64,000 nucleotides of DNA from an uncultured Spirochaetota bacterium (GTDB lineage Bacteria; Spirochaetota; UBA4802; UBA5550). Below the pieces are notes generated by a model. That model had not been told where the DNA came from. It saw only the letters and a program-made list of their open reading frames with translations, and ran no database searches. Positions 27,292 through 62,322 of this stretch are shown here, piece after piece (within the stretch, counting starts at the first letter, position 1; each line of letters begins with the position of its first letter). Made by a program: the position numbers and the translations under genes. The DNA is taken from the NCBI GenBank assembly GCA_937872225.1, contig CALMRZ010000016.1:1-64000 (forward strand), given 5' to 3'.

Positions 27292-27969
27292 ATGAAGAGA
27301 ATATTGCGAATCATTATTCCCCTCGTGTTAATTGCGGTTTTCCAGCTGGTTGACCATGCCGCGGCGGCGGATGACGGCTGGAAACTGAAGAAAAGGCAGG
27401 ACGGGGTCTACGCCTTCTTGCGGGACTATCCCGGTTCCGGATTGAAGGAATTCAGGGGGGTCATGTATGTCAAGGGCGTGCGGCTGTCGAGCATGGTGGC
27501 CACCTTTGACGATACCGCCTCCTATCCCCGGTGGATGCACAACTGCATCGAATCGAAGCTGCTGAAGTACATGAACGTCCGGGAGCGCATCACCTACACC
27601 GTCACCCACGCGCCCTGGCCCGCCAGCGACCGGGACGTCATCGTGTATTCTCTCATGACCCAGGATCCCGGGGACCTGTCCGTGACCATAGCCATCACCG
27701 GCAGGCCGGACTACATGCCGCCGCAGAAGGGCCGGCTGCGGATCCCGATGATGAAGGCCAGCTGGACCTTCAGGCCGCTGAAAACGGGCGACGTCATGGT
27801 CGTGTACCAGACGGTCACCGATCCGGGCGGACCGCTTCCGCTGTCCCTCCTGAACCTGTCCGTGGTGGACCTGCCGTTCCTGACCATGCAGAAATTCAGG
27901 AACGTGGTCAGGGATGACCGGTACGCTGCCGCAATATATCAGGTGATATCAGAGCCCATGGTCAACTAG
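27292..27969 (+). CDS. Secreted START/Bet v 1-like lipid-binding protein, copy 1
   Basis: A 225-residue protein with a signal peptide (about 1-25) followed by a START-like helix-grip domain. WKLKKRQDGVYAFLRDYPGS begins the domain, and FDDTASYPRWMHNCIES, THAPWPASDRDVIVYS and GSW/ASWTFRPL-type strands are typical of START proteins that carry a hydrophobic ligand. It is about 50% similar by eye to the next gene, 110 bases downstream, with the same motif order, so the two are a tandem duplication. No catalytic residues are expected. The ligand is unknown; periplasmic lipid or pigment transfer is plausible. AGGAG lies upstream. Confidence 0.86.
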   Translation: MKRILRIIIPLVLIAVFQLVDHAAAADDGWKLKKRQDGVYAFLRDYPGSGLKEFRGVMYVKGVRLSSMVATFDDTASYPRWMHNCIESKLLKYMNVRERITYTVTHAPWPASDRDVIVYSLMTQDPGDLSVTIAITGRPDYMPPQKGRLRIPMMKASWTFRPLKTGDVMVVYQTVTDPGGPLPLSLLNLSVVDLPFLTMQKFRNVVRDDRYAAAIYQVISEPMVN

Positions 27970-28081
27970 CCCCGCGCCGGATCGGCATCGATGGGTGTTA
28001 GAGGCCCGGATTTCATTTGGGATGATGCGGCACGGATGATCATGATTGTTTCCAACAATAACCAGCGGAGAGGCGACTGCC

Positions 28082-28756
28082 ATGATTAAAAAGATTGTCT
28101 GTACCGCAGTGCTGTTCATCGCGGCCGTAGCGGTGATTGCCGATGCTTCGGCACAGAGCGAGTGGAAGCTGAAAAAGAAGGGCAACGGCATCGAGGTCTA
28201 CGTCAGGGACGTGCCCGGATCCAGGCTCCAGGAGTTCAAGGGGACCATGTACCTTGAGAAGACCCGGCTCTCCAGCCTGATGGCGGCTTTTGAGGACACG
28301 TCGTCCTATACCGCCTGGATGTACGAGTGCATTGACGCGAAGCTCCTGAAACAGATCAATTTCTACGAGCGGATCCACCACCTCGTCACCCACGCCCCCT
28401 GGCCGGTTTGGAACCGCGACCTCGTGTCATATTCCGTCTGCCGGCAGGATCCGAAGACCCTGGCGATTACGATATCGCTTACCGGGAAGCCCGATTTTAT
28501 CCCCCCCCTCCCCAATACGGTGCGGATACCGAAGATGACCGGCACCTGGACCTTTTCCCCGGCCGGAGGGGGCGACATCATGGTGACATACCAGATGCAC
28601 AATGAGCCCGGCGGGTCGATCCCGGCGGGCATCGCCAACATGGCGTCGGTCGACCTGCCCTATAACACCCTCATGCGTCTCCGGGAACTGATCAAGCAGG
28701 AGAAATACGCAAAGGCCGTGTTCGCCCAGATACAGGAGCCGAAGCAGGGGAAATAG
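28082..28756 (+). CDS. Secreted START/Bet v 1-like lipid-binding protein, copy 2
   Basis: A 224-residue paralogue of the preceding protein with its own signal peptide (cleavage near ADASAQ). Corresponding motifs are WKLKKKGNGIEVYVRDVPGS, FEDTSSYTAWMYECIDAKLL and THAPWPVWNRDLVSYS. A lone Cys (YECI) is shared with copy 1 (HNCI). GGAGAGG precedes ATG 28082, and an upstream in-frame start at 28046 would mask the signal peptide. Both copies keep intact frames, arguing for different ligands or expression rather than decay. Confidence 0.86.
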   Translation: MIKKIVCTAVLFIAAVAVIADASAQSEWKLKKKGNGIEVYVRDVPGSRLQEFKGTMYLEKTRLSSLMAAFEDTSSYTAWMYECIDAKLLKQINFYERIHHLVTHAPWPVWNRDLVSYSVCRQDPKTLAITISLTGKPDFIPPLPNTVRIPKMTGTWTFSPAGGGDIMVTYQMHNEPGGSIPAGIANMASVDLPYNTLMRLRELIKQEKYAKAVFAQIQEPKQGK

Positions 28757-29412: not shown

Positions 29413-31314
29413 ATGGGCAAGAAGCTGGCCGATTTGTTCCTGGGAAAATACAGGAACGCTGATTACGTCCTTCAGCAGAAATCAAAGCTTATTCTTTCCG
29501 TGTCCTTCGTCATCATTGCCGTTTTTATTGTCCTCATTTTAACCAATATTGTCCGCAACAACACGTCAGCGGAGGTCCTGTCGCCCCTTGTCTCGGGTCT
29601 GATCTTCCTGTTTGCTGCCCTGTACCTGTTGAGGTCGGGCAGGTTCACCCTATCCGCACACCTGGTTCTCTGTATATGCCTGGCTGCCGTCTGGGGCGCG
29701 CTGTTTTTCGATATCAATACCGAAAGCGCCATAGTCCTGGACACGATCGTCTATGCCATTGGACTCATGGTGCTGACGCCGATCGTGGTGACGCGGCACA
29801 AGACCGGTATCGTCGTCTACTGCGCCGTTAACGTGGTCATTTTTATTATTTTCAGCTTGCGGGCGAAGGACCTGTACCACCTTTCGGTCTTTGCCTTTAC
29901 CGATTATCTCATCGACAACATGATCGCCTTCGTTTTCATCGGTATCATGTCCTATCACATATTCAGGATCAATGACAGGGCCCTGCGCCTGGCCGAGGAG
30001 GAAATGGAGAAAAACCGGGACCTGGCCCAGCACCTCGAGGAGATGGTCCACGACCGCACCGAGGAGCTCCAGGAGGCGAATGATAAGCTGAAGGAGATGG
30101 ACCGCATCAAGTCCAACTTCTTCGCCAACATTTCCCATGAAATCAGGACGCCCCTGACCATGATCCTGGCCCCGGTCGAATCGGCCCTCCAGGGAGACCA
30201 GGGCGTCACCATCGACCGCAATCTCCTCCTGACGGTGGAGCGCAACGCGTCGCGGCTCCTGAACCTCGTCAACAACCTCCTGGACCTTGCCAGGCTCGAC
30301 GCGGGACGCATGCCCATGGCCGTGGCCCGGCAGGACATGGTCGCCTTCGTCCGGTCGTACATCGACACGGTCCGCTCCGCCTTCGAGACTCGTCATCTTG
30401 ACCTGAAGGTGGTCTCCTCCAGGGACTCCATCACGGTCTATTTCGACCCTGAAAAGATGGACAAGATCTTCATGAACCTTTTCTCAAACGCCTTCAAGTA
30501 CACCGAGCCCGGCGGCTCCATAACGGTCAGGGTGATCGATGATGACCGGGCCTGCTACATCGAGTTCGAGGACACCGGGGCGGGCATCCCCCGGGACAAC
30601 CTGGACATCATCTTCGACCGCTTCGGCCAGGCCCATGCCGGCGCGCACCGCCGGGGGGAAGGCTCCGGCATCGGCCTCTCCCTGGTCAGGGAGCTGGTCC
30701 AGCTGCACGGCGGCACCGTATCGGTGGAGAGCGTCTACGCCGGCGACAATCCCGCTGACCACGGCACCGTGTTCACCATCATGCTTCCCAAGGGGACGGC
30801 GCAGTGGAAATACTTTCCCGGTATCCAGTACCTGGAGCCGGGGGAGAAGGGCGGCCCGCTCTTCCCGCAGCGGGCGGTGGAGACGCGGTTCCTGAGCGAG
30901 GCCAAGGAGACCATGCCGGGACCCGCGGCGACGCCGGCCCGGCCCGAAGTGTCGCTCCTCGTGGTTGAGGACAATGCCGATATGCGGAAGTACCTCACCA
31001 CGCTCCTCGAGCGCCGGTACTCGGTGCGCTGCGCCGAGAACGGCCGGGAAGGCCTGGCCGCGGCAACCGCAAAGAGGCCGGACCTCGTCATCACCGACGT
31101 GATGATGCCGGTGATGAACGGCTATGAAATGACGAGGCGGCTCAGGGAGGACGATGCGCTGAAGCAGATACCGGTCATCATGCTCACCGCGCGGGTGGAA
31201 TCCAGCGAACTGGATGACGGCCAGGTGAACATGGCCGACGATTACATCACCAAGCCCTTTAACGGGCAGGAGCTCCTGTCCCGCATCGAGGCCCTCCTGT
31301 CCCGGCGCAAATAG
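29413..31314 (+). CDS. Hybrid sensor histidine kinase/response regulator with 6TM sensor
   Basis: A 633-residue protein. Residues 25-190 form six membrane helices with almost no periplasmic loops, followed by a coiled coil (about 190-230). The HisKA domain has the phosphoacceptor His242 in FANISHEIRTPLTM. The ATPase domain shows NLFSNAFKYT, FEDTGAGIP and GSGIGLSLV. The C-terminal receiver has LVVEDNADM, LVITDVMMPVMNGYEM with Asp562, and YITKPFNG. The kinase can therefore phosphorylate its own receiver; an output partner is not adjacent. The membrane part (FLGKYRNADYVLQQKSK, LLRSGRFTLSAH) is homologous to those of the SpoIIE protein at 51739 and the chemoreceptor at 60766. GAGGAAG precedes the ATG. 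Confidence 0.95.
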   Translation: MGKKLADLFLGKYRNADYVLQQKSKLILSVSFVIIAVFIVLILTNIVRNNTSAEVLSPLVSGLIFLFAALYLLRSGRFTLSAHLVLCICLAAVWGALFFDINTESAIVLDTIVYAIGLMVLTPIVVTRHKTGIVVYCAVNVVIFIIFSLRAKDLYHLSVFAFTDYLIDNMIAFVFIGIMSYHIFRINDRALRLAEEEMEKNRDLAQHLEEMVHDRTEELQEANDKLKEMDRIKSNFFANISHEIRTPLTMILAPVESALQGDQGVTIDRNLLLTVERNASRLLNLVNNLLDLARLDAGRMPMAVARQDMVAFVRSYIDTVRSAFETRHLDLKVVSSRDSITVYFDPEKMDKIFMNLFSNAFKYTEPGGSITVRVIDDDRACYIEFEDTGAGIPRDNLDIIFDRFGQAHAGAHRRGEGSGIGLSLVRELVQLHGGTVSVESVYAGDNPADHGTVFTIMLPKGTAQWKYFPGIQYLEPGEKGGPLFPQRAVETRFLSEAKETMPGPAATPARPEVSLLVVEDNADMRKYLTTLLERRYSVRCAENGREGLAAATAKRPDLVITDVMMPVMNGYEMTRRLREDDALKQIPVIMLTARVESSELDDGQVNMADDYITKPFNGQELLSRIEALLSRRK

Positions 31315-47662: not shown

Positions 47663-49843
47663 ATGGGCAATGGAATGGGCAATGGTAAGAAAAAAATTTT
47701 CATGGCTGTTTTTCTTTTTTCGATGATATGCCTGGTTTCCCCGGGCTGTGATAATGATTCAGACGATAATTCGTTTCCCCTTCTGGGATCAGATTCAGGA
47801 CAGACAGACAGTAACGGCGGAACCGCCGTACAATCCAATGAGACAACCGGGTCCGGCGGAAGCGTTTACCTTATCGGCACCGGGATCTATGACATAACCG
47901 GACCCGCGGCGGAAATCGGCATGATGGGGTACGCCGTGTCAGAGCAGAAGACATCCGGCATCCACCTGCGGCTCCGCTCGCGCGCTTACATAATCGGGGA
48001 CGCAGACAAGCGGGTCGTTTTCGTGAGCGCGGACCTGGGGATGCTTTTCCAGATGGTCAAGGTCAAGGTCTGCGAGAAAATCGCCGGGAATGCGGACCTG
48101 GCAAAATATTACAGCGAGAAAAATGTTCTCCTTTCCGCCACGCACACCCACAACGGCCCCGGGGGCTATTCAGGCTATTTTCTGTATGATGTGACCATCA
48201 ACGGCTTCGTGAAGCAGAACTTCAACGCCATCGTTGACGGCATATACCAGTCGATACTCAGGGCCCATAACAACCTGAAACGCGGCAGGATACTCATGGC
48301 CCAGGGAACCGTCGAGGGCTGCGGCGGAAACCGCGCCGAATCCGCGTATAACAACAATCCCGCCGCGGAGCGGGCGCGGTACGGCAGCATCACCGATACA
48401 ACCATGACCCTCCTGAAGTTCGTCACCCTTGACGGCGAGGAGATCGGCATGGTGAACTGGTACGCGGTGCATCCGGACAGCATCGGGCCTGAAAACACCC
48501 TGATCAGCGGCGATAACAAGGGATGGGCGTCATACCTTTTTGAAAAAGACAAGGGAGCCGATTACCGTGCCGCCAGGACCTTCGTTGCGGCCTTCGCCCA
48601 GGCCAGTGCCGGCGACGTGACGCCCAACATCGGCTTCGGCCAGGCCCCGGCAGACGTCACCTTTGAGAAGAACAAGAGCCTTGAGAACGCGGTCCTCAAG
48701 CAGTACAACAAGGCGAAAGAGCTGTATAACAGCGCAACCAGCGAGCTTTCAGGCTCGATCGATTACCGCCATGAGTGGGTTGACATGCGGACGCTCTATG
48801 TGGAAGAGGCGAAATGCGCCACCTGCGCCGCCGGCATGGGCGCTTCCTTTTCGGCCGGAAGCCCGGCGGACAACCCGAGCCCGTCTCCGCTCTTCCCGAA
48901 CGGAACCACCGTCGACAGCCTGAACTGGAGCGACAATGCCGCCAGCACCTTCCTGAATACCTTCCTCGGCGGCATCTTCGCCTTCGCGTGGCCCGCCACC
49001 AATGACGCGGCATACAAGAAGTGCCATGCCGAGAAGCCGGTGCTCATACCGACCGGCATCGCCCATATCAATGTCAACGGTCCCACCATGACGCCGCAGA
49101 TCATGCCGCTCCAGGTGCTCAAGATAGGGAACCTGGCCATCGCGGGGGTCCCCACCGAGGTCACCACCATGGCGGGACGCCGCATCAAGGAAACGCTCGT
49201 GACCGGCCTCTCCGGACGCGGCGTCAACGTTGCGGTGATAGCAAGCCTCGCCAACTCCTATGCGTCGTACCTCTCCACGAGGGAGGAATACGCCATGCAG
49301 TGGTACGAGGGCGCCTGCACGCAGTTCGGGCCCAACGAGCTGGCGGCCTTTCGGCAGGAATACGCGAAGCTCTGCAGGGCCATCGCTGACGGCACCGATG
49401 TCCCGGCAGGCCCGGCTCCCCGGGACGTGACGGGACTCACCGTGGATTTCACCGCCAAGGTGGTGCTGGATGACAAACCGCTTTTCAAGAATTTCGGCGA
49501 CGTCATAACCCAGCCCGACGCGAGCTACAGCCGGGGCGACACGGTAAGCGTTCAGTTCTGGGGCGGACATCCCAACAACAATCTCCGGACACAGGACACC
49601 TTCCTGGTCGTCGAGAAGCTTGTAAATGGCAGCTACGTTCCCGTGGCGCGCGACTGGGATCCGGAAACAACGTACCGCTGGCAGAGAAACGGAATATCAT
49701 ACTCGATAATAACCATAACGTGGCATACCAAGAACGCGGAGCCGGGCACATACCGGATCCGCCACAAGGGGGACTGGAAGTCGGGCTGGACCGGTAAAAT
49801 AAGCGCCTATGAAGGAGTCACCACTGCCTTCAAGGTGCAGTAA
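47663..49843 (+). CDS. Neutral/alkaline ceramidase-like lipoprotein
   Basis: A 726-residue protein with a signal peptide and lipobox LVSPGC (lipidated Cys near 29), a short Ser/Gly/Asp-rich linker, then the ceramidase_alk domain. GTGIYDITGPAAEIGMMGY, ATHTHNGPGGYSGYF (Zn ligand His) and WYAVHPDSIG with SGDNKGWASYLFE agree with the family, and an immunoglobulin-like C-domain (about 570-726) follows. The nucleophile motif known in this family is GDVSPN; here it is GDVTPN, so the Ser is Thr320 (codon 48620-48622). An insertion (about 385-440) has four Cys. Activity is therefore uncertain. Loss of a lone catalytic hydroxyl type is notable. GGGGG precedes the ATG. Confidence 0.88.
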   Translation: MGNGMGNGKKKIFMAVFLFSMICLVSPGCDNDSDDNSFPLLGSDSGQTDSNGGTAVQSNETTGSGGSVYLIGTGIYDITGPAAEIGMMGYAVSEQKTSGIHLRLRSRAYIIGDADKRVVFVSADLGMLFQMVKVKVCEKIAGNADLAKYYSEKNVLLSATHTHNGPGGYSGYFLYDVTINGFVKQNFNAIVDGIYQSILRAHNNLKRGRILMAQGTVEGCGGNRAESAYNNNPAAERARYGSITDTTMTLLKFVTLDGEEIGMVNWYAVHPDSIGPENTLISGDNKGWASYLFEKDKGADYRAARTFVAAFAQASAGDVTPNIGFGQAPADVTFEKNKSLENAVLKQYNKAKELYNSATSELSGSIDYRHEWVDMRTLYVEEAKCATCAAGMGASFSAGSPADNPSPSPLFPNGTTVDSLNWSDNAASTFLNTFLGGIFAFAWPATNDAAYKKCHAEKPVLIPTGIAHINVNGPTMTPQIMPLQVLKIGNLAIAGVPTEVTTMAGRRIKETLVTGLSGRGVNVAVIASLANSYASYLSTREEYAMQWYEGACTQFGPNELAAFRQEYAKLCRAIADGTDVPAGPAPRDVTGLTVDFTAKVVLDDKPLFKNFGDVITQPDASYSRGDTVSVQFWGGHPNNNLRTQDTFLVVEKLVNGSYVPVARDWDPETTYRWQRNGISYSIITITWHTKNAEPGTYRIRHKGDWKSGWTGKISAYEGVTTAFKVQ

Positions 49844-49929: not shown

Positions 49930-50049
49930 GATTGCGCGAAAAAATAATCTTTCATTTTTTCCATTTCGTGTACTATATAACCGCCTCAACTGCAGGCCTT
50001 GAATTGGCCGGTCGAACCGGGGCCGCCGCACAATGATGCGAGGTGCTTG

Positions 50050-51732
50050 ATGAACTGGGTTTCCATACCGGCGGTCATCATGGCTGCCGTTTCACTGTAC
50101 GTGGGGTTTTACTATTTCTGGATGTATGCCCGCCGCCGTCTTGAGATAGAGAACCTGGCCTTTGCCGTGACCTGCCTCTCTATCGCCTTCTATGATGTGT
50201 TCTGCGCGGGGCTGTACAACGCATCTTCGCCGGAGCAGGGGATGTTCTGGCAGCGCTGCCAGTTTGCCTCGCTCTGCGTCTTCACCGTGTCGGTGTCATG
50301 GTTTCTTTATTTCTTCACCGGGTTCCGGTCGCGGATACCCTTCATCATCATCACCGCGTGGCTTTCTCTTTTATTTGTCCTGGGGCTGGTCATCAGAAAC
50401 GAACTGACCCTTGCCGCATCCAGGCCCTATGTCAAGTTCATCAGCCTGGGCGGCATCAGCATCATCTATAACGAAATGGATCCCGGCATCATCTATGGCA
50501 TTCAGTACACTTCCATGGTGCTTATTGGATTGTTCCTTTTGTATGTGCTGGTGTACCACTACCGGAACGACGAGGAGCCACGGGTGCGTCCCATCATGAT
50601 TTCGATGGTGCCATTCATGGCCGCCTCGGTCAATGACGTCATGGTGGGCGCCGGCGTGTATCCCTTTATCTATCTGACTGAATATGCCTACATGTTCATC
50701 ATTTTCTCGATGGCCTATGTGCTCCAGAACCGCTTCATCGACCTTCACCGCGAAGTCGAGGAGCTGACCCTGCAGTTGGAGGAAAAGGTCAATGACCGCA
50801 CCATGGAGCTTTTCCTGAGCGAAATCACGCACCGGCTCTATGCCGAGATCGCGGGGGAGTCGTCGGCGCGGGCGCCGGACGGCGGCGAAGGGCCCGAGGA
50901 CATGCCGGCCCCGGGGAGCGGCCTGAGCCAGGACATCAGTATCATCACCAACATAGACAAGCTGCTGAACCGCTCCCTGGAAAAGGGCGCGGAGATCGTC
51001 GGCGCCGAGCGGGCCTACCTCTTCATGATCGATGAGAGGGGCCGCCTTGACCGGGCGGCGTCCCTGGGGGAAGGCGGGAGCCAGGAATGGATCCCGGGCG
51101 CAGCCGAGCGGGCGCTGTGGGAAAACCGGCACCTGATCATGAACAGGCATGATGCCGGGGGGAACCCCGCCGGCCATGACGCCGGGCCTGACGTGCGACA
51201 TTCTCTGCTGGTGCCGGTGAACCTGCGCGGCAAGGCCATCGGCGTCTGCTGCATGCAGCGGCCGGCGGCCCTTGACGCCTTCACCGAACGCGACATACGG
51301 ATCGCCGGGGTCTACGTCTCCCAGGCCGCCTCGGCCATTGAGAACGCCTACCTGTACCAGCGTATGATCGACCGCAACGAAGCGGTCCGGCAGCAGTCGG
51401 TCACTCCCAACATCGAGGACAAGATGAAAAAGGCAATCGCCTTCATACGGGAGAATTACCGCTCCGACATTTCGCGGGAAGGGCTCGCGGCCTCCCTCAA
51501 CATGCACCCCGACTCGTTCGGTCGGTTCTTCAAGATCTATACCAACAAGAAGATCAGCGAGTTCATCAACGAGCTCCGCGTCATCGAAGCGGCGCGGAAG
51601 CTCCGCGAAACAAGCGCGAACATCATAGAAATAGCTTTTTCCGTGGGCTTTGAGAGCCTTCCCACCTTCAACCGGGCCTTCATGAAGGTGATGAACGTCA
51701 CGCCGACGCGGTACCGCGGGGAAAAGACGTGA
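50050..51732 (+). CDS. Membrane-bound AraC-family regulator with 7TM sensor and GAF domain
   Basis: A 560-residue protein. Seven membrane helices (about 1-225) start MNWVSIPAVIMAAVSLYVGF and include EMDPGIIYGIQYTS and NDVMVGAGVYPFIYL. A coiled coil (about 225-260) and GAF-like domain (about 300-440) follow, and the last 110 residues are an AraC helix-turn-helix pair: ISREGLAASLNMHPDSFGRF and IIEIAFSVGFESLPTFNRAF. A transcription factor fixed in the membrane is unusual; it must reach its operator from there, or be released. The 7TM part is homologous to that of the SpoIIE protein at 59051 (DPGIIY, NDV-VGA-VYPFIYL). GAGGTG precedes ATG 50050. It adjoins a convergent SpoIIE gene. Confidence 0.93.
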   Translation: MNWVSIPAVIMAAVSLYVGFYYFWMYARRRLEIENLAFAVTCLSIAFYDVFCAGLYNASSPEQGMFWQRCQFASLCVFTVSVSWFLYFFTGFRSRIPFIIITAWLSLLFVLGLVIRNELTLAASRPYVKFISLGGISIIYNEMDPGIIYGIQYTSMVLIGLFLLYVLVYHYRNDEEPRVRPIMISMVPFMAASVNDVMVGAGVYPFIYLTEYAYMFIIFSMAYVLQNRFIDLHREVEELTLQLEEKVNDRTMELFLSEITHRLYAEIAGESSARAPDGGEGPEDMPAPGSGLSQDISIITNIDKLLNRSLEKGAEIVGAERAYLFMIDERGRLDRAASLGEGGSQEWIPGAAERALWENRHLIMNRHDAGGNPAGHDAGPDVRHSLLVPVNLRGKAIGVCCMQRPAALDAFTERDIRIAGVYVSQAASAIENAYLYQRMIDRNEAVRQQSVTPNIEDKMKKAIAFIRENYRSDISREGLAASLNMHPDSFGRFFKIYTNKKISEFINELRVIEAARKLRETSANIIEIAFSVGFESLPTFNRAFMKVMNVTPTRYRGEKT

Positions 51733-51738
51733 TCCGCC

Positions 51739-53067
51739 TCAATTGATGTCGAGGGCTATCAATGTCAGGTCGTCGTGGAATTTCTCGTCCTTCGAGAAAT
51801 CGACGAGGCTCATGATAAGGTTTTTCGAGAAAAGCTCCACCGGCAGGTGGCTGTTGTTCTTGATGTAATCGCGCAGCTGCCCGTCCGAGAACATCTCGCG
51901 GCGGGAGTTCATGCACTCGGTTACGCCGTCGGTGAAGAACACCAGGCGGTCACCCGGCTCCAGGTCGATGGACTCCTCCGACAGCTGGATGTTGTTCTCC
52001 CACCCCAGGGCCATTCCCTTCGAATAGAGCTCGTGAAAGGTATTGTCGCGCTTCCGGTACAGGATCTGCGGTATGTGCCCCGCCGAGGTGAAGCGGATTA
52101 TCTTCGATGCCTTGTCGATGCGGCAGTAAAAGCCGGAGACGAAATTTCCCAGCACCGTGCAGCCGCAGAGCACCTCATTGATGCGGCTCAGCACCTGGGT
52201 CGTCGGCACGGTGTCTGATATGGAATGGAGGAGCGCCACCTTTGAGATGAGGGCCATGAAGGCGCCGGGGATGCCGTGGCCGGACACGTCGGCTATGAAG
52301 ATATGGAGCTCGTCGCCGTAGGTGAAGAAGTCGTAGAAGTCGCCGCCGATCTCCTCCATGGGCAGGTAGCTGGCGTACACGCTGACGCGGGGGTCGTCCT
52401 TCGGGGCGTCGGGCATCAGGTTGGACTGGATGAGCCGGGCGATCTCGAGTTCGGCATGCAGTTCCCGGTTCTGCTCCTCGCGGCGCGCCGCCTCGGTGAC
52501 CCTCCTGTTGATCAGGAGGATGGTGAAGCAGATGATGACGGTCATGATCGTCGAGGCGGTATAGTCGATCAGGGCGCCCCGGACAACCGGGAAGAAATCT
52601 TCAGTTATGGGATTGTTAAGATACACGACATAGGACGTTATGCCGCTTCCTACCAGCAGTGTCGTGATGAAGATGATCCATGACGGCCGGCAGAAGAGGG
52701 CGGTGAAAATGATTATGATCGGGAAAAAATAGAAGTTGGTGATATAGTCCATCCTGCCGCGCCAGACCTGGCCGTAGAACCCGAGGAAGATCACCGCTGA
52801 AGCGAAACAGAACGAGAACATATTCACAGCCGCATGGTAGCGTCCTGCCCTGAGAAGGAACAGGCTCATGATCTGGACCAAGCATAATCCGAAGAGAATA
52901 TAGTTGGTGACCCGCAGTTCCATCGTGAAGTTGAGCACGATGAAAAAAACCGTGCAGAATGCCAGCGTTGAAGTTATGAGGTACAGGAAAAGTTTCGCCT
53001 TTTCCCGGATTTCCACCGGTGCGTCGGCATAACGGGACAAGAAAAACATCGGTATGTTTTTAATCAT
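51739..53067 (-). CDS. SpoIIE-type phosphatase with 6TM sensor
   Basis: A 442-residue protein. Residues about 20-195 form six helices with short loops. The linker coiled coil (ARREEQNRELHAELEIARLI) leads to a PP2C/SpoIIE domain with EEIGGDFYDFFTYG and DVSGHGIPGAFMALI, both metal-binding Asp blocks, and ends FHDDLTLIALDIN. The membrane part is homologous to the kinase at 29413 and chemoreceptor at 60766 (FLSRYADAPVEIREKAKL; LLRAGRYHAA). It should dephosphorylate an anti-sigma antagonist in response to an unknown membrane signal. ATG 53067 was chosen over an in-frame TTG. It is divergent from the catabolic operon. Confidence 0.94.
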   Translation of the reverse strand: MIKNIPMFFLSRYADAPVEIREKAKLFLYLITSTLAFCTVFFIVLNFTMELRVTNYILFGLCLVQIMSLFLLRAGRYHAAVNMFSFCFASAVIFLGFYGQVWRGRMDYITNFYFFPIIIIFTALFCRPSWIIFITTLLVGSGITSYVVYLNNPITEDFFPVVRGALIDYTASTIMTVIICFTILLINRRVTEAARREEQNRELHAELEIARLIQSNLMPDAPKDDPRVSVYASYLPMEEIGGDFYDFFTYGDELHIFIADVSGHGIPGAFMALISKVALLHSISDTVPTTQVLSRINEVLCGCTVLGNFVSGFYCRIDKASKIIRFTSAGHIPQILYRKRDNTFHELYSKGMALGWENNIQLSEESIDLEPGDRLVFFTDGVTECMNSRREMFSDGQLRDYIKNNSHLPVELFSKNLIMSLVDFSKDEKFHDDLTLIALDIN

Positions 53068-53443
53068 CAAACCTGATCCTCTATGTTCCTGTCGAGAAGG
53101 CGGGGGTTTTGATATTATTTGATGCTACCCAATTACTGTTGTTTGATAGTGACATAAAAATTAATTTTGTCAATAAAAAATCACTCAATGATATATTTTT
53201 AATGAATTATCCCATAATGTGTTGATATTTTTGAAAATTCAGCACCATTGTATTCTCCGGGAAAACCGCTGTTATTTCATTTTCTGATTGGTCTGTTTTT
53301 GATAAGACATGAACGTTTTTTAATGCTATGTATATGTTAATACGAAGCATTATGGCAGATATAACAATAGGACCTTCACAAGCCTTCACCTGGAAGTGAT
53401 TGTTTACATACATAAAAAAACAGGATAACAAAAAAGGCCCCGT
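53068..53443. promoter_or_regulatory. AT-rich control region between the SpoIIE gene and the catabolic operon
   Basis: About 375 bases, strongly AT-rich, no supportable gene. TGACA (53150-53154) and TGTCA (53168-53172) form an inverted repeat around an A/T core, a candidate operator 80 bases upstream of the divergent SpoIIE start. Promoters for both directions must lie here, but no good -35/-10 pair was found for the operon, suggesting activator dependence. Confidence 0.45.
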
Positions 53444-59050: not shown

Positions 59051-60643
59051 ATGAACTGGTTATCCATACCCGTCTTCATGTCCGCGTCCGTTTCGTTCTA
59101 CGTGGGATTCTATTACCTCTGGATGTATTTCAGGAGAAGGTCGGAGAGAGAGCAGCTTTCCTTCGCCGTGACCTGCTTCATCGTTTCGGCCTACGACCTC
59201 TTCTGCGGCGGTCTCTACAACGCGCAGTCACTGGCCGAGGGCATGTTCTGGCAGCGCTTCCAGTTCGCCAGCCTGGCCCTCCTCTCCATCGCGGTGCTCT
59301 GGTTCCTCTTTGATTTTTCGCATTACCGGATCGGCAGGCTGTTTTACATTATCGCCGGATACTTTTTCATTCTTTTCATCCTGGGCCTGGCGGTCAGGAA
59401 CGAACTGACCCTGTCGCTGGACCACCCGATGCTGAAGCCGGTCAGGCTGGGGAATTACATCAATATCACCTACCAGGAGGTCGATCCGGGAATTATTTAT
59501 CTGGTGCAGTATGTCTCCATGATGGCGGGGTATGTGTGGATACTCTACCTGATCGTGAAAGACCTGAAATCGGGTAACAGGAATATCCTCCCGCTACTGG
59601 TCGCCTTTGTGATATTCTTCATCGCCGCGGTTAATGACGTGCTGGTGGGGGCCGCGGTCTACCCCTTCATATACCTCATTGAGTATGCCTATATCATCAT
59701 TATCCTTTCCATGGCGCAGGTCCTGATGAACCGCTATGTCCAACTCCAGATCGAGGTCGAGGAGTTGAACAGGGACCTCGAGAAGAAGGTGGAGGAGCGC
59801 ACCGAGGAGCTCCATGCCGCCATGGAGGAGCTCGAGGCGATCAACGACCGCCTGGTACATACCAACGCCGAGTTGGAGGAAGCCCAGCGCGTCGCGTCCC
59901 TGGACATGGCCATGGCTGCCGGGGTGCAGGAGAGCCTGTTCCCCAAAGAGCCCCCGGCTTCGGACGAATGGGATGTGGCCTTTGTCTATCTCCCCAAGGC
60001 GGGGGTTTCGGGCGACCTGTATGACTTTTACGTCCATGACAACAGGCTGCAGGGCCTGTCCCTCTTTGACGTTTCGGGGCACGGCATATCGGCGGGCATC
60101 TTCACCCTCCTGGCGAAATCGATTCTGGGAAGGAATTTCACCCGGATGAAGGATGCAGGTCTCGGCAAGGTCGTTGAGAATGTGAACGCTGACCTGAAAT
60201 CGGACATCAGCAGCGTCGACAACTACCTGAGCGGCATCATGCTCAGGTTCAGGGATGACCGCGTGGAATACGTCAATGCCGGCCACCACGCGCTGCTGAT
60301 GAGGAGGGCCGGCACCGGAAAGGCCGGTATGGTCAAGCCGCAGGACCGGGACCAGCGGGGGACCATTCTCGGCATGGACGACATCGGCGGGGATTTTGAC
60401 GTTGTCCGGTTCCGCATGGCCACGGATGACGTCCTGCTCCTGTATACCGACGGCCTTGACGAAAGCTTCAATGAAACCGGGAAGCAATACGGCCGGAAGC
60501 GCATCATTGAGTCCCTGGAGAACGCCCCGGCCGGTCCCGCACGGGCAATCCTGGACCATATCATGGATGAATTCTACCGCTTTCTCGGGCTGAAGCCGCC
60601 GGGAGATGACTGCACTGTTATTGTTATCAGAAGATTGATTTAA
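59051..60643 (+). CDS. SpoIIE-type phosphatase with 7TM sensor
   Basis: A 530-residue protein. Seven helices (about 1-225) begin MNWLSIPVFMSASVSFYVGF and contain EVDPGIIYLVQYVS and NDVLVGAAVYPFIYL, so they match those of the AraC-type protein at 50050. A coiled coil (about 230-290) follows, then the PP2C/SpoIIE domain with GVSGDLYDFYV, FDVSGHGISAGIFTL and YTDGLDESFNETGK, ending PPGDDCTVIVIRRLI. It should dephosphorylate a partner-switch antagonist. GGGAGG precedes the ATG. Confidence 0.94.
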   Translation: MNWLSIPVFMSASVSFYVGFYYLWMYFRRRSEREQLSFAVTCFIVSAYDLFCGGLYNAQSLAEGMFWQRFQFASLALLSIAVLWFLFDFSHYRIGRLFYIIAGYFFILFILGLAVRNELTLSLDHPMLKPVRLGNYINITYQEVDPGIIYLVQYVSMMAGYVWILYLIVKDLKSGNRNILPLLVAFVIFFIAAVNDVLVGAAVYPFIYLIEYAYIIIILSMAQVLMNRYVQLQIEVEELNRDLEKKVEERTEELHAAMEELEAINDRLVHTNAELEEAQRVASLDMAMAAGVQESLFPKEPPASDEWDVAFVYLPKAGVSGDLYDFYVHDNRLQGLSLFDVSGHGISAGIFTLLAKSILGRNFTRMKDAGLGKVVENVNADLKSDISSVDNYLSGIMLRFRDDRVEYVNAGHHALLMRRAGTGKAGMVKPQDRDQRGTILGMDDIGGDFDVVRFRMATDDVLLLYTDGLDESFNETGKQYGRKRIIESLENAPAGPARAILDHIMDEFYRFLGLKPPGDDCTVIVIRRLI

Positions 60644-60765: not shown

Positions 60766-62322
60766 ATGTTTTCGAAAATCAATGACTACTTTCTCGGCGT
60801 CTATCGTGATTCAAGCTATATCCTGAAGCAGAAATCGCGGATAATCCTCACCATAGCGCTGATCATCTTCAGCATCGTGCCTGTCGTTATCGTCATGAAC
60901 ATCGCGACGGGGCAGGTGGCTCTTGAGCTCAATGCTCCCCTGGTCATGGTCATGGCCATGGTGCTGATCGCCATATATTTCCTCAAAAGGGGTAAATATG
61001 TCATTGCCGCGCATATGCTCCTGACTATCACCCTTCTTGCCGTTTGGGCCACGCTCTTTCTTGATGAAAGTAAAAGCTCGATCGTCGTTCTGGATACGAT
61101 TATCTACATTCCGGGTATCCTGGTGCTGACTCCCCTGGTGGTGTCCAGGAAAAAAATGGTCATCCTGCTGTATGCGGGGGTCAATCTGTTGATATTTGTT
61201 CTTTTTTTTCTGCTGATGTCTGACAGGTTCAAGCTGGATGACACTTCATCCATAGATTACCTGGTGGACAGCGCCATTACGATTGTTTTCGTAGGTCTCA
61301 TATCCTACCAGATCTTCAAGATAAACAAGACGGCCCTCGACCGCACGGAAGAACAGGCGAAGAAGAACGAGGACCAGTACAAGGTCATCAAGGGCCTCTA
61401 TGATTCCATCAAGGACGTGTCCGAGAAGCTCACTGACAATTCCGGCCAGCTCTCGAAGGAGTCCGACTCCTTCTCCATTCAGTCCCAGAGCCAGGCATCG
61501 GCCATCGAGCAGATAACCGCCACGTCCGAGGAGATATCCAGCGGCGTCGATATGGTGTCCGACAGCGTGGTGCGCCAGTACACCAGCATGGTGTCCCTCA
61601 CCGGGAACATTGAGAACCTGTCCGGCACGGTCCGGGAGATCGCCGCACGGATCCAGAAGGCCTTCGCCCTGACCGACGAGGTCTCCGGAGTCGCCAACCG
61701 CGGCGGCGACGTCCTGAGCGCCATGAGCGCGAGCTTCACGAAGGTGAACGAAAGCTCCGGCCAGATGACCGGCATCGTGGGAATGATCGGCGATATATCG
61801 GACAAGACGAACCTCCTCAGCCTGAACGCCGCCATCGAGGCCGCCCGGGCCGGCGAGGCCGGCCGCGGCTTTGCCGTGGTGGCGGACGAGATATCCAAGC
61901 TGGCCGACCAGACCGCGGCGAGCATCAAGGAGATCGACGGGCTCATCAAGGCTAACGTCGAAGAGATAGGCCGCGGCATGGCCAACGTCGAGTCGACGGT
62001 GGCCATGATCATGAAGATCATTTCCGGCGTAAGCGCCATCAGCACCGAGATACGGGAGATCTCGCAGCAGATGGAAAACCAGAAGGAGATCAACCGCAGG
62101 GTCATCGAAGAGGCCGGTGCGGTCATGAACATGTCCGACGAGATCAAGAAGTCGATGGCCGACCAGAAGGCCTCCATGAGCGAGATCGTGAGGTCCATCA
62201 CCAGCCTGAATGAGATCACCCAGGTCTACTCCGAGGGGGCCCGGAGGCTTTCGAAGAGTTCCCGGGGCCTGGACCGCATGGTGCAGGACCTCCACGGCAT
62301 GGCCCAGATCATTGATGATTAA
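60766..62322 (+). CDS. Methyl-accepting chemotaxis protein with 6TM sensor
   Basis: A 518-residue transducer without a Cache or other periplasmic domain. Residues about 25-185 are six helices homologous to those at 29413 and 51739 (FLGVYRDSSYILKQKSR; FLKRGKYVIAAHM). A short linker leads directly to the signalling domain, whose tip is DKTNLLSLNAAIEAARAGEAG with FAVVADEISKLADQTA. No HAMP domain is obvious. Start at ATG 60766 without a clear ribosome-binding site; CGGGGCGAG lies upstream. It couples an unknown membrane-level signal to chemotaxis. Confidence 0.94.
   Translation: MFSKINDYFLGVYRDSSYILKQKSRIILTIALIIFSIVPVVIVMNIATGQVALELNAPLVMVMAMVLIAIYFLKRGKYVIAAHMLLTITLLAVWATLFLDESKSSIVVLDTIIYIPGILVLTPLVVSRKKMVILLYAGVNLLIFVLFFLLMSDRFKLDDTSSIDYLVDSAITIVFVGLISYQIFKINKTALDRTEEQAKKNEDQYKVIKGLYDSIKDVSEKLTDNSGQLSKESDSFSIQSQSQASAIEQITATSEEISSGVDMVSDSVVRQYTSMVSLTGNIENLSGTVREIAARIQKAFALTDEVSGVANRGGDVLSAMSASFTKVNESSGQMTGIVGMIGDISDKTNLLSLNAAIEAARAGEAGRGFAVVADEISKLADQTAASIKEIDGLIKANVEEIGRGMANVESTVAMIMKIISGVSAISTEIREISQQMENQKEINRRVIEEAGAVMNMSDEIKKSMADQKASMSEIVRSITSLNEITQVYSEGARRLSKSSRGLDRMVQDLHGMAQIIDD

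Follow-up and report, generated by a model that had tools for sequence, protein, structure and literature searches.

The window, a 64,000-nucleotide stretch of a contig from an uncultured Spirochaetota bacterium, contains three genes whose products begin with a related six-transmembrane-helix (6TM) domain. They encode a hybrid histidine kinase (HK), a SpoIIE-type phosphatase and a chemoreceptor (MCP), all present as intact open reading frames, with the following features:

29413-31314, plus strand: hybrid histidine kinase with receiver (ORF)
29413..29985, plus strand: 6TM module of the HK, residues 1-191 (profile match 1.4e-64; 42% identity to the MCP copy)
29626..29646, plus strand: cytoplasmic TM2-TM3 turn of the HK, LLRSGRF (column statistics)
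29914..29916, plus strand: codon of HK Asp168, at the outer start of TM6 (column statistics)
30109..31290, plus strand: whole output of the HK (Pfam)
30109-30306, plus strand: HisKA of the HK (Pfam)
30445-30792, plus strand: HATPase_c of the HK (Pfam)
30958-31290, plus strand: receiver of the HK (Pfam)
51739-53070, minus strand: SpoIIE-type phosphatase (ORF; 51739-53067 from the ATG)
52498..53067, minus strand: 6TM module of the SpoIIE-type protein, about residues 1-190 from the ATG at 53067 (profile match 6.5e-59)
51745..52314, minus strand: SpoIIE phosphatase domain PF07228 (Pfam, E 1.2e-42)
60766-62322, plus strand: MCP, chemoreceptor (ORF)
60766..61350, plus strand: 6TM module of the chemoreceptor, residues 1-195 (profile match 3.9e-72)
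61675..62103, plus strand: MCP signalling domain PF00015, straight after the linker and without HAMP (Pfam, E 7.5e-32)

For the SpoIIE-type gene the shorter span, 51739-53067, is the likelier, since the TTG start is directly followed by an ATG.

A preliminary description of the window had proposed that the proteins at 29413, 51739 and 60766 share a loop-poor six-helix N-terminus, and this was borne out: the three N-termini represent a homologous domain of about 195 residues, consisting of a short lead-in helix and six transmembrane helices with short loops. The motifs are found at the positions given there, FLGKY/FLSRY/FLGVY followed by K23-x-[KR]25 and then by LLRSGRF/LLRAGRY/FLKRGKY, and Pfam assigned the expected different effectors (HisKA-HATPase-receiver, SpoIIE and MCPsignal). 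The 42% identity between the HK and MCP N-termini extends over 191 residues with zero gaps. On the other hand, the SpoIIE copy matches the HK and MCP copies weakly in pairwise alignments, at 20% across 206 columns (E 2e-4) and 29% across 98 columns (E 5e-5), a divergence that is too great for a safe claim from pairwise comparison. It nevertheless scored 114.9 bits against a profile built without any SpoIIE-type protein, whereas the top of 300 local shuffles of the copy, with the hydrophobic pattern preserved, reached 21.2. The first 200 residues of the window proteins yielded only chance-level matches in Pfam at E up to 10, and no further input domain was recognised by Pfam in the MCP, SpoIIE and HK copies.

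The gene arrangement of the window is almost entirely kept in the congener G042, where the ceramidase gene described below is syntenic and 84% identical, and where an extra 6TM chemoreceptor gene (L206:5712-7301) lies directly upstream of the HK orthologue, a place with no gene in the window. Two genes at 49999-51732 (7TM-GAF-AraC) and 59051-60643 (7TM-SpoIIE) carry the known N-terminal module HisKA_7TM, which, beside the 6TM genes, is modular in the same way, with GAF-AraC and SpoIIE outputs. Obligate pairing of such neighboring 7TM and 6TM genes was considered and is ruled out by another congener, G107, since both SpoIIE genes are missing there at these places, with the others retained. Directly upstream of the HK gene are tandem START-domain proteins (27292-27969 and 28046-28756), also in G042, and a neutral/alkaline ceramidase (47663-49843; PF04734, E 2.6e-153) is located two genes from the 6TM-SpoIIE gene. 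The START proteins and the ceramidase would suit a lipid theme, but START genes were not found adjoining the HK gene in G107, and we attach little weight to these neighbors.

Structure prediction agrees with the six helices first proposed. AlphaFold2 modeling of the HK copy and of the MCP copy, from shallow input alignments of window and related-locus sequences, gave at moderate confidence a lead-in helix at 2-13, five helices, and a sixth that is predicted to continue unbroken into the helical linker of the output. In the HK model, which was built from six sequences (mean pLDDT 68, moderate confidence), the helices span residues 2-13, 18-47, 53-74, 78-99, 105-126, 130-154 and 159-215; the model of the MCP copy reached a pLDDT of 70.6 and a pTM of 0.60, again moderate. 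The sequence itself features six hydrophobic helices with no periplasmic domain. Among 78 members of the family, basic residues are present before TM1, in the TM2-TM3 turn, in the TM4-TM5 loop and after TM6, while acidic positions occupy the TM3-TM4 loop (D100, D110) and the surroundings of the TM6 start (D164, D168). This charge distribution and the positive-inside rule together place both the N- and the C-terminus of the domain in the cytoplasm. Position 23, ahead of TM1, is K or R in 97% of the 78 members, G76 of the TM2-TM3 turn is kept in 77 and D168 is Asp in 68. Across this set the most variable columns are the membrane-embedded ones, with L10, Y13, K23, G76 and D168 being retained.

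Copies in the genome of this organism outnumber the three first noted. The profile recovered 14 matches, corresponding to 11 intact genes, one gene that a frameshift has broken into two pieces, and one remnant. The frameshifted gene (L015; G000:C16:81544-82127) is of the 6TM-PAS-HisKA_2 type and is interrupted within the end of the 6TM domain, which may reflect an assembly error or a pseudogene; the remnant (L017; G000:C32:66285-66635) comprises half a 6TM domain followed by a receiver end in another frame, and thus would derive from a hybrid kinase that lost its middle. About a quarter of the sampled Spirochaetota genomes have the module, with matches in 74 of 296 at E 1e-3 in the profile search and in 102 of 393 at E 1e-4 with a larger alignment. 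The order to which the window's organism belongs is the richest, with at least 10 copies in several genomes. A scan across all species with short patterns from one protein found three Spirochaetota metagenome-assembled genomes, and relatives were not found on plasmids and viral contigs.

Outputs were assigned by Pfam at E 1e-5 for the 78 6TM proteins of our alignment A3. MCPsignal predominates (41 of 78), followed by HATPase_c in 25 (with HisKA in 16 and HisKA_2 in 7), the receiver in 17, and SpoIIE and GGDEF in four each, two of the latter with EAL. Thus, the diguanylate cyclase fusion that had been envisaged from the window exists, whereas the adenylate cyclase fusion proposed alongside it was not found, as Guanylate_cyc, the class III cyclase catalytic domain, was detected in none of the 78. 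HAMP is likewise absent from the Pfam list of these members, and PAS or GAF linkers are frequent, including in many of the kinase and c-di-GMP proteins. Two 6TM-PAS-GGDEF-EAL proteins, L095 and L091, have degenerate GGDEF motifs (FDGDKF and YDDNKF) and are therefore probably phosphodiesterases, judging from these motifs. In a phylogeny of the 78 domains, at least nine changes of output are required, and the 6TM domain of the SpoIIE protein L078 groups with that of the MCP L020 (SH-aLRT 99) inside an MCP clade, the two being 54% identical in a 278-column alignment that covers domain and linker. Hence, the 6TM domain behaves as an exchangeable module.

The preliminary description had considered the domain possibly undescribed. 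This stands with respect to the databases, for no Pfam or NCBIfam family matches it: the 78 domains gave scattered chance matches only in Pfam at E up to 1, with MASE, MHYT and 7TMR-DISM not among the 25 listed. A sequence search of the PDB with the 6TM profile had no match, and the AlphaFold2 model of the HK copy, made from six sequences, had no meaningful fold match. MASE, MHYT, 7TMR-DISM and HisKA_7TM are likewise intramembrane N-terminal sensors common to several signaling outputs; none of the four is on the Pfam list of the 78 members, and HisKA_7TM gave 0.3% in profile comparison. In design, the 6TM HK resembles CqsS and LqsS, quorum-sensing histidine kinases of Vibrio and Legionella, in which a six-helix short-loop N-terminus sits on a kinase and functions with no periplasmic domain (PMC4821796). 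CqsS and LqsS are however histidine kinases, whereas the 6TM module is additionally found on MCP, SpoIIE and c-di-GMP outputs.

What did not fully stand is the isolation of the domain, as it probably forms a remote branch of the family of six-helix membrane anchors found in class IIIa adenylyl cyclases of the Cya/Rv1625c type. Considering that the PDB gave no sequence match to the 6TM profile, we collected class III cyclase anchors of the same phylum, using the six-helix anchors of 14 Spirochaetota cyclases that were picked for their helix content, irrespective of similarity to the query. By eye, some Spirochaetota class III cyclases (L116, L122 and L141) have a seemingly ammonium-transporter-like membrane domain and no 6TM anchor. 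The sole PDB match of the anchor profile was the membrane part of M. tuberculosis Cya/Rv1625c (E 3.3e-11), demonstrating that the collected anchors are of the Cya kind. Comparison of the 6TM and anchor profiles with hhalign yielded 96.3% and 95.8% for two separately made alignments; the matched stretch of 183-185 columns keeps register from a point ahead of TM1 through into the linker and takes in the GR/GK turn that follows TM2. E-values from such single profile comparisons are not database E-values. Either main 6TM clade by itself reached about 95% against the anchors. Reversed sequences gave 0.9-6.8%, and four real membrane families drawn from the same genomes as controls (HisKA_7TM, PgsA, rhomboid and VTT) at most 1.8%, while the best of thirty shuffles of 25-column blocks reached 57.6%, across 33 columns where TM6 meets the linker. 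Removal of the linker lowered the match to 88% over 128 columns, and removal of linker and lead-in to 43% over 90 columns, so the case for homology is weaker on the membrane columns alone. Compared directly with the Cya sequence alone, the module showed no signal.

Foldseek ranked Cya (7yzk) as the first neighbor of the MCP-copy model (probability 0.98, TM-score 0.48, E 0.28, not significant), with human AC5 at rank 13 (probability 0.89, TM-score 0.59, E not significant); the model would thereby serve as an independent pointer to the same protein as the profile comparison. Cya/Rv1625c (PDB 7YZI/7YZK) and the membrane domains of mammalian adenylyl cyclases have, as the 6TM module, six short-loop helices with both ends inside, and the shared elements are a lead-in before TM1, a charged turn after TM2 and a TM6 that passes into a helical linker. 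The module has however a signature of its own, FLxxY, the KxxG turn and Asp168, and carries MCP, histidine kinase, SpoIIE and c-di-GMP outputs in place of the cyclase of the class IIIa enzymes. The acidic extracellular site Ex1 of Cya is made up of D123, E164 and D170 (PMC9433096), and in the 6TM family acidic residues are likewise concentrated in these two outer loops (D100 and D110; D164 and D168), at positions not clearly aligned with those of Cya.

We consider it probable, then, that the 6TM domain is a mobile intramembrane receptor which branched distantly from the class IIIa cyclase anchors and was repeatedly joined to other outputs, with the sensing suggested by the architecture and by analogy to the cyclase and CqsS literature. 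The protein would act as a dimer, and the packing of its two bundles would be altered by a small molecule, probably lipophilic or derived from the membrane, or else by a cation on the acidic outer side; helix 6 and then the linker would relay this change to whichever output follows, be it kinase, phosphatase, chemoreceptor or c-di-GMP enzyme. A variable membrane core with L10, Y13, K23, G76 and Asp168 kept would fit one transmission frame serving different ligands. Given the outer aspartates, a free fatty acid would seem a less likely ligand for the outer face than a cation, an amine or some hydrogen-bond donor. In Cya the dimer interface is formed by helices 4-6, the TM1-5 bundle serves as a rail for the helices leading to the catalytic domain, and the structure shows pockets (PMC9433096). 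Transplantation of the CqsS receptor onto Rv1625c generated a response to CAI-1 (PMC4821796), and Rv1625c is inhibited by C18 mono-unsaturated fatty acids only with the membrane domain present (PMC12505454), while a receptor role of cyclase membrane domains in general is still debated (PMC12414865). The same device as in Cya and CqsS, placed on other outputs, would be the simplest reading of the 6TM family.

It is less likely that the domain represents a sensor fold of its own, with the resemblance to cyclase anchors having arisen by convergence, both being six-helix bundles with short loops and a coiled coil at their end. Such an origin would accommodate the 43% of the membrane-only columns, the lack of a match to the single Cya sequence and the Foldseek E of 0.28, but it fits poorly with a register that runs end to end over 183-185 columns through the GR/GK turn, with the low scores of the rhomboid, VTT, PgsA and HisKA_7TM controls, and with the structure comparison, which independently points to Cya. 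A haem or redox sensor of the cytochrome b561 or CyaC type is highly improbable: the six short helices recall the diheme-B anchor of CyaC, as indicated by a reference in PMC12505454, but two haems need four axial ligands, and the family offers a single conserved His position, H83 at the cytoplasmic end of TM3, in 44 of 78 members and otherwise mostly Asn. A diheme sensor was consequently dropped for lack of conserved histidines in the column statistics of the 78 members.

We likewise deem it unlikely that the module is a passive anchor and dimeriser that binds no ligand, with regulation exerted by PAS/GAF linkers or partner proteins. The high variability of the membrane core and the PAS or GAF domains of many kinase and c-di-GMP members are in agreement with such a role. 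It would however leave the chemoreceptors with no known stimulus, and the window MCP, SpoIIE and HK copies possess no other recognised input domain; moreover, 68 of 78 members retain Asp168 on the outer face, and it is the 6TM domain alone that swaps between outputs.

Returning to the reading of the module as a mobile receptor related to cyclase anchors, what is new is a module named in no domain database, and what is known is its distant kin, the membrane anchors of the cyclases. What the membrane half does for adenylyl cyclases has long been in question, and the receptor view draws on chimeras and on recent work with lipids (PMC4821796, PMC12505454, PMC12414865). The natural occurrence of a homologous module on several kinds of output would weigh strongly for the receptor role, since a chemoreceptor with no other input domain gains little from a mere anchor, and the idea becomes testable by ordinary chemotaxis assays. 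More tentatively, the adenylyl cyclase membrane domain might be just one branch within a family of mobile receptors of general use, comparable to PAS or Cache, which in Spirochaetota would be among the main inputs to chemotaxis and to two-component, SpoIIE and c-di-GMP signaling, with copies reading different membrane-soluble ligands and some of the chemoreceptors responding to lipids. For one Spirochaetota lineage, the 6TM module would represent a main, hitherto unannotated, sensory input.
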